A DNA stretch of 64,000 nt from Rhizobium sp. Root483D2 (GTDB taxonomy: Bacteria; Pseudomonadota; Alphaproteobacteria; Rhizobiales; Rhizobiaceae): contig NZ_LMFB01000009.1 of the NCBI RefSeq assembly GCF_001426685.1, positions 324,454-388,453 of the forward strand, in the 5' to 3' direction. A program made the translations under genes and the position numbers. This document shows, in pieces, positions 26,796 to 37,117 of the stretch. Numbering within the stretch: the stretch's first letter is position 1; every line of letters begins with the position of its first letter. The notes below the pieces were generated by a model, which ran no database searches, was not told where the DNA came from, and worked only from the letters and a program-made list of their open reading frames with translations.

Positions 26796-27395
26796 ATGAC
26801 GATAGCGAACCATATCGATGATGCCCAGACTACCAATCCACTTCGTTTGGGAATCCGTCTGCGGCTTGCGCGTCAGACCAGGGGTATGACGCTGAAGGCC
26901 CTTTCAGACGCGGCCAATTGCTCCGAAAGCCTGTTGTCAAAGATCGAGAACGGCAAGGCGTCGCCGTCGTTGCCGATGCTGCACCGCCTGGTGGGCGCGC
27001 TCGATACCAATATAGGCTGGATGTTTGAGGAATCCGACGGGGAGGAGGGGATCATCTTTCGTGCAGGAACGCGGCCGCTGATTGCACTTGATCCTTTGCG
27101 GCGCGGAGAGGGGATTTCGCTGGAGCGGATCATTCCCTACTCGGCGGGACATCTGCTTCAGTGCAATATCCACCATATCGAGGAAAAGGGCGAAAGCGCC
27201 GGCCCGATCCAGCATGCCGGAGAAGAGGTCGGCTATCTCCTTGCCGGTGAAATCGAGCTGATTGTCGATGGCAAGAGCTTCATGCTGGCGACCGGCGATG
27301 CCTTTGTCTTCAACTCCGAATTGCCGCACCATTATCGCAATACGGGTCGTGAGCGGGCCAGCATTTTCTGGGTCAATACGCCAGCCACGTTCTGA
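26796..27395 (+). CDS. XRE-family transcriptional regulator with C-terminal cupin domain
   Basis: This 199-residue protein has a helix-turn-helix at about 15-70 (RLARQTRGMTLKALSDAANCSESLLSKIENG) and a cupin effector domain at the end (HAGEEVGYLLAGEIELIVDG, NSELPHHYRN). This class (PuuR-like) usually represses the neighbouring catabolic operon and is released by its substrate. Three identical operator arms occur before this gene and before the ABC operon that follows. The ATG at 26796 follows AAAAAGGCG; a GTG at 26763 is in frame. Confidence 0.88.
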   Translation: MTIANHIDDAQTTNPLRLGIRLRLARQTRGMTLKALSDAANCSESLLSKIENGKASPSLPMLHRLVGALDTNIGWMFEESDGEEGIIFRAGTRPLIALDPLRRGEGISLERIIPYSAGHLLQCNIHHIEEKGESAGPIQHAGEEVGYLLAGEIELIVDGKSFMLATGDAFVFNSELPHHYRNTGRERASIFWVNTPATF

Positions 27396-34015: not shown

Positions 34016-35271
34016 TCTGCTCCGCAGACATCAACGCTGCACGCCTTCTGAAAAGACTGGATGATTTCGCGGCAATCGGCGCAACGCCGGCAGGCGGCGT
34101 CAACCGGGCAGCGCTGGGACGTCAAGACCAGGCTGCCCGCGCGCTGCTGGCAGGCTTGGCGCTGGAGCGCGGTTTCCGCGTCTTCCAGGATCCGCTCGCC
34201 AATCTGTTCATTCGCCGCGATGGGAAAAACGGCAGCCTTGCCCCCTTTCTGATCGGCAGTCATCTCGACAGCCAGCCGACGGGCGGACGCTATGATGGCG
34301 CCCTCGGCACGCTGGCCGCCTTTGAGGTTCTCGAGGCTCTGGAGGATGCGGGACTGGAAACGGAGGCGTCGATTGAGGTGGTCGCCTGGACAAACGAGGA
34401 AGGCAGCCGCTTTGCACCGGGCGCGATGGGCTCCATGGCATTTTCGCTAGGGCATATTCCGCAGAATTGGCAGGATATCCGTGGAACAGACGGCGTCTTT
34501 TGGCGTGACGCCCTTGCGGAGACGCTTGCGGCCTTGCCGGTCGCCGAGCAAAGGCCGCTCGGATTTCCGATTTCAGGATATCTTGAACTTCATATCGAAC
34601 AGGGGCCGTCCCTGGAAAACGAAGATATCCCGATCGGCATCGTCACCGGCGTGCAGGGAACCCGTTGGCTCGATATCACGGTTACCGGCCAGGCCGCGCA
34701 TGCGGGCACGACCCAGCTGGCGTTTCGCCGCGATCCGATGATGGCGGTGACCCATGCGCTGCATACGCTTTACGAAACCATCATGCCCGAAGACGGCGAT
34801 GCACGCCTGACGGTCGGAAGGATCACAGCACTTCCCGGCTCCGTCAACGCAATTCCAGGATCCGTCAGCCTCAGCATCGACCTGCGCCATCCGCAATCAG
34901 ATCGCCTGGACAAGATCGAGGCACAGGTCTCGGAAGCCTTTCAATCGTCGGTGGCCCCGCATGGCTGCAAAGCCGATATCCGCCGCACATTCGATATGAG
35001 CCCGGCCCGGTTCTTCCAGCCGGTGATTGAAGGCGTGGAAAGGGCGGCACGTCATTTGAGGCTCCGGTTCAAGCATATGGTCTCCGGCGCCTTTCACGAT
35101 GCGCTCTATGTGGCGCGTATAGCACCGGCCGCGATGATCTTCGTGCCCTGCAGGGATGGCCTCAGCCACAATGAGGCTGAGTATGTGGAGCCGGACCATT
35201 GTGTGGCCGGCGCTCGCATGCTGCTTCAATCGGCGCTGGAAGTGATCAGCGCCGGCGCAGGCAAACATTAA
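34012..35271 (+). CDS. M20-family amidohydrolase (allantoate amidohydrolase/N-carbamoylase type)
   Basis: This 419-residue metallohydrolase has the family ligands GSHLDS, GGRYDGALG, WTNEEGSRF, LELHIEQGP and SHNEAEYV. Members split N-carbamoyl amino acids, allantoate or ureidoglycolate, releasing ammonia and carbon dioxide or a related group. Its place at the end of a ribosyl-type uptake operon suggests the substrate carries a ureido or amide group. ATGA overlap with the previous gene. Confidence 0.88.
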   Translation: MICSADINAARLLKRLDDFAAIGATPAGGVNRAALGRQDQAARALLAGLALERGFRVFQDPLANLFIRRDGKNGSLAPFLIGSHLDSQPTGGRYDGALGTLAAFEVLEALEDAGLETEASIEVVAWTNEEGSRFAPGAMGSMAFSLGHIPQNWQDIRGTDGVFWRDALAETLAALPVAEQRPLGFPISGYLELHIEQGPSLENEDIPIGIVTGVQGTRWLDITVTGQAAHAGTTQLAFRRDPMMAVTHALHTLYETIMPEDGDARLTVGRITALPGSVNAIPGSVSLSIDLRHPQSDRLDKIEAQVSEAFQSSVAPHGCKADIRRTFDMSPARFFQPVIEGVERAARHLRLRFKHMVSGAFHDALYVARIAPAAMIFVPCRDGLSHNEAEYVEPDHCVAGARMLLQSALEVISAGAGKH

Positions 35272-35463
35272 TAACGCGAAAAGCCAGGGCGTAGCGGCCG
35301 CAATTTGGGCAGCTGCGCCGCGAGCGCTGCAGCCGGTGCATAGGTGCTGTGATGCATTGTCGATATTCTGATCAAAGAGAAGGGCCTATATTCTCTTCAT
35401 CAAACGACGCCGGAACCAAACGCGGTTGCTGACGTCAACAGAACCTCACGAAAGGGGATCATC

Positions 35464-35610
35464 ATGAACGTAGCACGCACCTTGAACAACTGGCGCAAGT
35501 ATCGTCAGACCGTATCCGAACTCGGCCGTATGACCAATCGCGAGCTGAGCGACCTGGGTATTGCCCGCGACGATATCCGCAGCGTTGCCCGCGCAGCCGT
35601 CGCTTTCTAA
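35464..35610 (+). CDS. DUF1127 small protein
   Basis: This 48-residue basic protein has the DUF1127 core (NWRKYRQTVSELGRMTNREL, SDLGIARDDI). In Rhodobacter a DUF1127 protein (CcaF1) is cotranscribed with CcsR small RNAs and binds RNA. Exactly that arrangement follows here at 35786-35943. AAAGGGG precedes the ATG. Upstream CCTATAT at 35385-35391 could be a heat-shock-type -10, but no matching -35 is clear. Confidence 0.88.
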   Translation: MNVARTLNNWRKYRQTVSELGRMTNRELSDLGIARDDIRSVARAAVAF

Positions 35611-35630
35611 GCAAGCCTTGAGTTTTGGAT

Positions 35631-35657
35631 GAAGCGCCCGCCCTGTGCGGGCGCTTC
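35631..35657 (+). terminator. Hairpin after the DUF1127 gene
   Basis: GAAGCGCCCGC and GCGGGCGCTTC form a perfect 11-bp stem around CCTGT, 20 bases after the stop. The downstream T-run is short (GCGTTTC), so some read-through into the small-RNA array is possible. Confidence 0.7.
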
Positions 35658-35785
35658 GCGTTTCGGGCTTGCTGACGGGGCAGAGACCCGCTGGAACGCC
35701 GTATCTTCCGATGTGCATTTCCTGCATAGCTGCAGTGCAGCATAAACGCTTTGAAATCATCGCGATCAGCGTATGATCGTTTCCA

Positions 35786-35943
35786 TCGAAGCAATGCACC
35801 TCCTCCCGCAGAGCTTCGAATTTCAGGCGGCCCACTCCTCCTCCCAAGGGGCGCCTGAAGGAACAGCGGCACTCCTCCTCCCAGTCGCTGTTCGGTTCTT
35901 TTCGAAAAGCCTGCCGCACCTCCTCCCGCGGCAGGCTTTTTCG
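35786..35943 (+). ncRNA. Array of four CCUCCUCCC-loop small-RNA hairpins (cuckoo/CcsR-like)
   Basis: Four hairpins follow each other, each with CCTCCTCCC in the loop: 35786-35819 (stem TCGAAGC/GCTTCGA), 35822-35859 (TTCAGGCG/CGCCTGAA), 35861-35893 (GAACAGCG/CGCTGTTC) and 35905-35940 (13-bp AAAAGCCTGCCGC stem, then TTTTTCGTTTT). The loop motif starts at 35799, 35837, 35874 and 35919. The stems differ in sequence while the loops are the same, so structure is conserved rather than DNA. The motif is complementary to Shine-Dalgarno sequences. The last hairpin is also a Rho-independent terminator. Similar arrays are described in alphaproteobacteria as cuckoo RNAs, often after DUF1127 genes. Confidence 0.85.
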
Positions 35944-35962
35944 TTTTAGGGGATTTGGCCGT

Positions 35963-37117
35963 CTATAAATCGAGATCGAATTGTGGCTGCCGTTCTGCAT
36001 CGTCGCGAACGGGAGCGTTTGTCAGCGACGACAAGGTCACGCCCAGTAGCCGGATGGCGCGTTTGAACGGATAGACCGTGGCCAGAAGTGTCGATGCGGT
36101 ATCGAGGATATCTGCGGCATTTGCAAAGGGCGTCGCTTTCGTACGGCTGCGCGTCGCCTGGGTGAAATCGGAATATTTGATCTTCACGGTCACCGTCTTG
36201 CCGCTGATCCCCTGCGCCTCGCAATAGCGCCAGACCTTTTCGGCAAGCGGCTTAAGCTCCAGCCGGGCCAGATCGAAATCGGTGATATCTTCAACGAACG
36301 TGTCCTCCGCACCGGCGGATTTGCGGATGCGGTCGGGCCGGACGAGGCGCTCATCGATACCGCGCGCGATCCCGTAGAAATAGGGACCGGACTTGCCGAA
36401 ATGCTCCTGAAGGAAAGCCAGCGATTTCTGCTTCAGATCAAGTCCGGTTTCGATGCCGTATTTGCGCATCCGCTCGGCGGTTGCCGGTCCAACGCCATGA
36501 AACTTCTTCACTGGCAAAGCCTCTACAAAGCCTGGGCCGTTCTTTGGCGTAATCACGGCCTGCCCATTCGGCTTGTTGAGATCGCTTGCCATCTTGGCAA
36601 GGAACTTGTTGTAGGAAATTCCGGCGGACGCACTGAGACCGGTCACCTCAGCGATCCTCGCGCGGATTTCTGCGGCGATCTCGGTGGCGATTGCCATGCC
36701 TTTCAGGTTTTCCGTCACATCGAGATAGGCCTCGTCCAGCGATAGAGGCTCGATCAGCGGCGTGTATTCGGCAAAGATCGCACGGATCTGCTGGGAGACC
36801 GCCTTGTAAACGTCAAAGCGCGGCGGCACGAAGATCAGGTCTGGACATTTTCGCTTGGCGGTGACCGACGGCATGGCCGAATGCACGCCAAATGCTCTCG
36901 CCTCGTAGCTGGCCGCAGCCACGACCCCGCGCGCCGCCGATCCACCAACGGCAAGCGGCTTGCCGCGCAGCTCCGGATTGTCGCGCTGCTCGACGGATGC
37001 ATAGAAGGCATCCATGTCGACATGGATGATCTTGCGCTGACGCACTGGCTCATCCGGCGTTTGAGCCCGGGATATCGGATCTGGAATGGCTGTAGTATCG
37101 TCGCCGGGGATATACAT
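35963..37117 (-). CDS. dinB: DNA polymerase IV (DinB)
   Basis: This 384-residue Y-family translesion polymerase has HVDMDAFYASVEQRDNPELRG in parts typical of DinB, the steric region SYEARAFGV, PLSLDEAYLDVT with the catalytic Asp-Glu pair, and the SAGISYNKFLAKMASD fingers motif. It ends QPQFDLDL, a beta-clamp-binding tail. It copies damaged DNA with reduced accuracy. It converges on the small-RNA array, whose terminator lies 20 bases beyond its stop. Confidence 0.95.
   Translation of the reverse strand: MYIPGDDTTAIPDPISRAQTPDEPVRQRKIIHVDMDAFYASVEQRDNPELRGKPLAVGGSAARGVVAAASYEARAFGVHSAMPSVTAKRKCPDLIFVPPRFDVYKAVSQQIRAIFAEYTPLIEPLSLDEAYLDVTENLKGMAIATEIAAEIRARIAEVTGLSASAGISYNKFLAKMASDLNKPNGQAVITPKNGPGFVEALPVKKFHGVGPATAERMRKYGIETGLDLKQKSLAFLQEHFGKSGPYFYGIARGIDERLVRPDRIRKSAGAEDTFVEDITDFDLARLELKPLAEKVWRYCEAQGISGKTVTVKIKYSDFTQATRSRTKATPFANAADILDTASTLLATVYPFKRAIRLLGVTLSSLTNAPVRDDAERQPQFDLDL

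Follow-up and report, generated by a model that had tools for sequence, protein, structure and literature searches.

A DUF1127 gene and its four-hairpin alpha-r14 neighbour in Rhizobium sp. Root483D2: probably two units, each behind an LsrB/VtlR-type box

A small DUF1127 gene is followed, in the 64-kb stretch of DNA analysed here (the window; G000:C9:324454-388453, part of a 6.04-Mb genome), by four hairpins with identical loops, and the question is whether gene and hairpins form one transcript or two. We consider it probable that they are two neighbouring units, each with its own promoter: a monocistronic mRNA that encodes a 48-aa protein, and a trans-acting sRNA of ~160 nt with four hairpins (~35785-35943). 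The original prediction had described a 48-codon DUF1127 gene and four hairpins with a common loop, which ORF calling, Pfam, motif positions and folding confirmed. Folding also agreed with it that the last hairpin is a 13-bp stem with a T-run terminator, and the perfect 11-bp hairpin that it had placed between the two parts is present. These features have the following window coordinates:

35464..35610, plus strand: gene for a small arginine-rich DUF1127 protein (ORF call, 48 aa; Pfam PF06568, E=9e-16)
35631..35657, plus strand: perfect 11-bp hairpin 3' of the DUF1127 gene, which probably terminates the DUF1127 unit, perhaps leakily (folding; 3-T tail)
35786..35819, plus strand: hairpin 1, loop CCTCCTCCC at 35799; RNA 5' end expected at ~35785; double-sided change in 2/10 pairs
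35822..35859, plus strand: hairpin 2, loop CCTCCTCCC at 35837; double-sided change in 8/9 pairs
35861..35893, plus strand: hairpin 3, loop CCTCCTCCC at 35874; double-sided change in 7/10 pairs
35905..35943, plus strand: hairpin 4, intrinsic terminator, loop CCTCCTCCC at 35919; 13-bp stem and T-run
35818..35943, plus strand: Rfam RF02344 (ar14) match over hairpins 2-4, 108.3 bits (gathering score 58.8)

The DUF1127 gene is flanked by a gene for a Zn-dependent hydrolase and, on the opposite strand, by dinB. Plasmid p2 of Pararhizobium qamdonense has the same gene order (BtpA/SgcQ, Zn-dependent hydrolase, DUF1127, dinB, serine protease); a 631-base query matched this plasmid over 99% of the query length, at 97.1% identity.

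All four CCTCCTCCC copies start inside a hairpin loop, and each hairpin presents one CCUCCUCCC unpaired there. Folding gave z values of -4.9, -2.4, -3.5 and -7.0 for hairpins 1-4 and of -5.7 for the 361-nt region, for which 0/100 shuffles were equally stable. Chance clustering of the loop motif is ruled out by 200 first-order Markov copies of the window, which held a mean of 0.5 copies of CCTCCTCCC on both strands and never two within 60 nt on one strand, compared with four in 129 nt in the window itself. Single copies of CCTCCTCCC are unremarkable (52 in the 6.04-Mb genome versus 40 for the reversed pattern), and what is unusual about the array is their clustering in loops. A lone CCTCCTCCC outside any array is found at position 27040 of the window, on the minus strand.

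Judged by its sequence, the array belongs to the known alpha-r14 or "cuckoo" sRNA family and has the four hairpins of the SmelA099 type. The ar14 match is the sole gathering-level Rfam match in the 64 kb and bears out the predicted cuckoo-type RNA with anti-Shine-Dalgarno loops; hairpin 1 lies outside it because ar14 is a three-hairpin family. The number of hairpins, three there and four here, distinguishes the array from alpha-r14 (RF02344), whose founder NfeR1/Smr14C2 shares with it the anti-Shine-Dalgarno loops and an LsrB-type box upstream, as reported for nfeR1. An RNA with four hairpins and these loops has been known since 2011 in S. meliloti, where it is called SmelA099 or smrA6 (model RFMSmelA099; PMC3927594), and PMC7143759 gives it in a table as 1328175-1328334, minus strand, 160 nt. 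This stretch of pSymA is a 160-nt four-hairpin sequence that can be aligned along the array of the window, with near-identical hairpins 1 and 4, the same loops and a length like the ~160 nt predicted here, whereas hairpins 2 and 3 diverge in sequence. By this alignment the listed SmelA099 5' end, with a VtlR-type box at -59, corresponds to ~35785 of the window. The ~970 nt read upstream of SmelA099 showed no DUF1127 ORF. AbcR1 and AbcR2 (ar15, RF02345) are also LsrB/VtlR-linked RNAs with anti-Shine-Dalgarno-like motifs and ABC-transporter targets (PMC10746234; PMC7486931), but they belong to a separate Rfam family, with five ar15 matches elsewhere in the genome.

The genome holds five copies of ar14: two on C13 beside DUF1127 genes, the one in the window, one on C38 and, again with four hairpins, one on C5. 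The C13 pair (L001/L002, G000:C13:35067-35485) consists of two tandem arrays upstream of DUF1127 genes at 35711 and 36367, and this order of two arrays and two DUF1127 genes recurs in many loci of a 49-locus survey.

A set of 151 genomes, that of the window included, was searched with the window DNA, which matched in 54/151, and with ar14, which matched in 108/151 and above the cut-off in 90. From 55 loci put into an alignment we removed the duplicates L107 and L128 as well as L125, L127, L140 and L141, in which the terminator pattern is missing, leaving 49 distinct arrays; L067, L103, L105, L108 and L114, which have lost or gained loops or the terminator, were kept out. Loops 1-4 are exact in 47, 46, 44 and 48 of the 49. 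When the structure of the window copy was applied, 97.4% of the cells paired (91.4% after shuffling), double-sided change was found in 17/42 pairs (shuffled mean 9.9, with 0/500 reaching 17; 5-9 for slid structures) and double-change cells numbered 110 as against 27.4, although the shuffle count is not a probability because the structure was taken from one row and the rows are related. The covariation signal comes from stems 2 and 3, that of hairpin 1 is slight (2/10), and the nearly invariant hairpin 4 gives none, with 0/13 pairs changed on both sides and 100% of its cells paired. RNAalifold recovered the identical four hairpins, with 36 pairs, from the same 49-row alignment. The comparison with relatives that had been proposed as a check thus showed stems 2 and 3 changing in compensation and the loops kept, and the converse pattern, in which the loop motif is lost and the stems are kept, was absent from these arrays, except that a few copies have single loops that have degenerated. 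Near-invariant loops on stems that go on pairing through compensation indicate that selection maintains both, as expected of an anti-Shine-Dalgarno RNA.

Some copies depart from the common form. L108 (G007:C7) is a five-loop array (loops at 1132, 1169, 1206, 1269 and 1314) in which a copy of hairpin 3 was apparently inserted into hairpin 4, and in L105 (G022:C116) the first loop alone remains; this gain and this loss suggest that the unit number shifts quickly. The third loop of L056, L058 and L110 is now CCTCCTCTT, on a remodelled stem; the other three loops are exact in L056 and L058, and loops 2 and 4 are also altered in L110.

The same alignment bears on the possibility that the array serves chiefly as a 3' structure or as a terminator in several copies, with a loop motif that plays no part in pairing, a proposal to which hairpin 4, a nearly invariant intrinsic terminator, lends some credit. 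However, loops that are exact in 44-48/49 arrays while stems 2 and 3 covary are the opposite of what a pure terminator needs, and, according to PMC10746234, NfeR1 with mutations in its three loops fails to reduce an ntrB reporter in S. meliloti. A plain terminator array was therefore rejected on loop conservation and stem covariation in the 49 arrays, and we give a mainly terminating role very little chance.

As to how the two units would be controlled, the VtlR box has been given as GCAT-N3-TG-N3-T (PMC7486931), an LsrB motif TGCA-N6-GCAT lies upstream of nfeR1, which LsrB binds and activates (PMC10746234), and three DUF1127 genes of Brucella are under VtlR control (PMC12595884). The published accounts of LsrB disagree, since the AbcR RNAs of S. 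meliloti are unaffected by loss of lsrB in one of them (PMC7486931) and LsrB is named as an activator of AbcR1 in the other (PMC10746234). The window has an exact box of this type in front of each unit:

35338..35350, plus strand: LsrB/VtlR-type box GCATAGGTGCTGT of the DUF1127 promoter, exact GCAT-N3-TG-N3-T, 126 nt before the ATG
35385..35392, plus strand: probable -10 CCTATATT of the DUF1127 promoter, picked by eye; similar in most relatives compared
35724..35736, plus strand: LsrB/VtlR-type box GCATAGCTGCAGT of the sRNA promoter, exact, 75 nt before the first loop
35771..35778, plus strand: probable -10 region GTATGATC of the sRNA promoter, GTATGAT-like in many relatives

The spacing from box to probable -10 is 48 nt for the DUF1127 gene and 47 nt for the array, and the probable -10 of the array directly precedes the point at which the SmelA099 5' end, as listed, falls in the alignment. 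A promoter scan with an E. coli-type consensus found no sigma-70 site, and no clear RpoH-like -35 was seen by eye in the DUF1127 promoter. We do not claim that the array promoter arose as a duplicate of the DUF1127 promoter, because from the box on the two agree at only 30/66 positions without gaps.

The position of the box is kept in relatives. Among window-type loci (38, less L105, without an array, and the duplicate L107) the exact box lies at -71 to -76 from the first loop in 32/36 arrays; L063 was scored as a miss, though its box is at 1894 and its loop at 1969, an earlier loop-like word having been taken. Arrays of a second type (22 loci, less L127, without an array) have it in 20/21, at -74 or -75, so that both types pooled give 52/57, compared with ~0.002 expected for a stretch of 13 positions at other places in these loci; the rows with box positions are mostly of one genus. 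For the window-type loci the box lay inside the search query, whereas the second-type matches start at least 44 nt past it, and these boxes are free of that selection bias because their 22 places were matched by BLAST from query positions 481-486, with the box at 425-437. In front of the DUF1127 gene the box is found at the same place in the window-type loci, exact in 14/29 and with one mismatch in 15/29 (38 loci, less eight in which no DUF1127 ORF was found and one duplicate). Both boxes are exact in 13 loci (L043, L044, L046, L047, L050, L054, L059, L060, L062, L063, L104, L105 and L111), among them L105 with its one remaining loop, and the DUF1127-array pair on pSMED02 of Sinorhizobium medicae WSM419 has both boxes as well. 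By itself the box pattern shows no enrichment in the window (12 matches versus 11.7 expected), and only its fixed position counts as evidence; a tighter form of the box, chosen post hoc, gave 7 matches versus 2.6 expected.

Elsewhere in the genome, an exact box precedes the DUF1127 genes of L006, L007 and L008, at -111 to -127; two more distant DUF1127 genes, L010 and L012, have no exact box (L011 being outside the count). No exact box was found within 150 nt upstream of 3/5 ar14 copies (both on C13 and that on C38), nor before the first arrays of the C13-type loci in the 49-locus survey. A LysR gene of the genome sits between trxB and tandem ar15 RNAs, which is the order described for vtlR/lsrB (PMC7486931). 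By gene order and Pfam family, this gene at the lsrB place is a putative LsrB/VtlR and the likely regulator; of the 25 NCBIfam matches listed for it, none reached the cut-off.

The original prediction had taken the Rhodobacter CcsR1-4 RNAs and the DUF1127 protein CcaF1 as its model. According to PMC10253847, an RpoH promoter drives ccaF1 and the CcsRs as one transcript, from which RNase E releases the separate RNAs, and a short DUF1127 gene beside a CcsR-like RNA defines a CIN1 or cuckoo locus. The window has exactly this neighbourhood, a DUF1127 gene and then fourfold anti-Shine-Dalgarno-type RNAs, so that the association was, as had been stated, already known and this part of the model stands. 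Its wiring probably does not, since the array has its own conserved box and a -10-like sequence: a single RpoH-driven precursor processed by RNase E in Rhodobacter sphaeroides contrasts with what are probably two units behind separate boxes here. CcaF1 has 71 aa versus 48 aa in the window, and the Rhodobacter locus is likened to ours by description. CcsR1-4 is also not supported as the best model, because the homologue SmelA099 is listed as one 160-nt RNA that contains all four hairpins (PMC7143759).

Applied to the window, the published Rhodobacter operon would mean a single DUF1127-array transcript that runs through a weak hairpin at 35631-35657 and that RNase E, assisted by the DUF1127 protein, would cleave into individual hairpin sRNAs. 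The tail of this hairpin has only three T (the bases 3' of it are GCGTTTC), and a terminator scan of 35270-35970 reported no site, this hairpin included; the scan covers loops of 3-8 bases and is thus blind to hairpin 4, whose loop has 10. Moreover, in 10 genomes of 10 genera of the 49-locus survey (L097/L158, L098, L144, L147, L148, L149, L150, L151, L152 and L153) 19-32 nt separate the DUF1127 stop from the first exact loop, a gap that makes a joint transcript likely in those genomes, and in 6/10 of them an exact box lies 102 to 111 nt before the DUF1127 start; the survey was made of the best ar14 matches and hand-picked places, with at least one overlap (L097/L158), and is not a random sample. 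Against such an operon in the window stand the exact box ahead of the array in 32/36 window-type loci, the stem 3' of the DUF1127 stop in 26/29 of them, which carries a T-run of 5 or 6 in 13/26, and SmelA099, a single listed RNA with no DUF1127 ORF found upstream. We therefore hold a processed common transcript to be unlikely for this locus. Among the routes originally proposed for the array, read-through, processing or a promoter of its own, the last is favoured by the conserved box and the SmelA099 5' end, and leaky read-through in this strain is possible.

On the two-unit explanation, we lean slightly, and for all of its parts taken jointly, towards a broader reading. Two wirings would exist inside one bacterial family, the tight DUF1127-array arrangement and the pair of boxed units, the latter in no fewer than three genera besides that of the window. 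As a regulon module, the locus would let one LysR regulator set a DUF1127 protein and an anti-Shine-Dalgarno RNA in parallel, and the same regulator would act on further DUF1127 genes and on the genome's second array of four hairpins.

In the mechanism that we propose, the CCUCCUCCC that each hairpin exposes single-stranded would serve as an anti-Shine-Dalgarno element, and the loops would pair with purine-rich ribosome-binding sites and block translation start, foremost at GGGAGGAG-type sites of mRNAs for periplasmic solute-binding proteins, with four redundant loops perhaps giving higher avidity or dose. The LsrB/VtlR LysR-type regulator would activate both units through the like boxes before each probable -10, so that repression of uptake and the level of DUF1127 protein would rise in step. 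We infer the binding of LsrB, transcription in this strain, the repression of targets and the effect of four loops. PMC10746234 reports that NfeR1 silences ntrB with such loops and that most of its predicted targets are ABC-transporter mRNAs. The pattern GGGAGGAG-N3-9-ATG is listed at 39 places of the genome, 38 of them distinct and all read, and Pfam identifies 13/24 ORFs of at least 190 aa behind it as periplasmic binding proteins, including two TctC, compared with 2/15 behind a control pattern, AAAGGAGA-N3-8-ATG (50/51 places). This contrast (Fisher 0.012 one-sided, 0.017 two-sided) covers two ribosome-site patterns only, depends on a 190-aa cut of our own choice and includes some starts that may be internal (L187), and it is supporting, not decisive, because the first 28 ORFs had given 8/19 versus 1/9 (p 0.11) before both sets were enlarged.

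The main partner of the loops could instead be the DUF1127 protein or its mRNA, in a local feedback unit, as the adjacency of gene and array in the window and the reported binding of RNA by CcaF1 (PMC10253847) might suggest. However, the predicted pairing of the loops with the DUF1127 gene's own ribosome site is weak (-7.0 to -8.5 kcal/mol), and the same loops are found where no DUF1127 ORF was found close by, that is on the array strand in the ~1-3 kb read around second-type arrays and in the stretch upstream of SmelA099. In addition, Salmonella YjiS, which is also a DUF1127 protein, showed no binding of RNA (PMC12501420). A mainly local feedback would thus come as a considerable surprise to us.

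The family, its four-hairpin form, the DUF1127 link, the LsrB-nfeR1 relation and the control of Brucella DUF1127 genes by VtlR are already in print. In the open literature searched we did not find the twin-box arrangement, which may nevertheless be in print, nor the regulatory logic of the linkage between DUF1127 genes and cuckoo RNAs outside Rhodobacter, and the useful addition of this work is the twin-box layout at a DUF1127-array locus. With this layout, the four-hairpin form of alpha-r14, which is widespread but has received little study, shares its likely regulator with the DUF1127 gene beside it, which opens a direct test of whether DUF1127 proteins and anti-Shine-Dalgarno RNAs work together, and the work adds a list of candidate targets, about half of which are periplasmic binding proteins. 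If the broader reading is true, the locus would switch nutrient uptake and DUF1127-dependent signalling jointly, with one LysR regulator over both.
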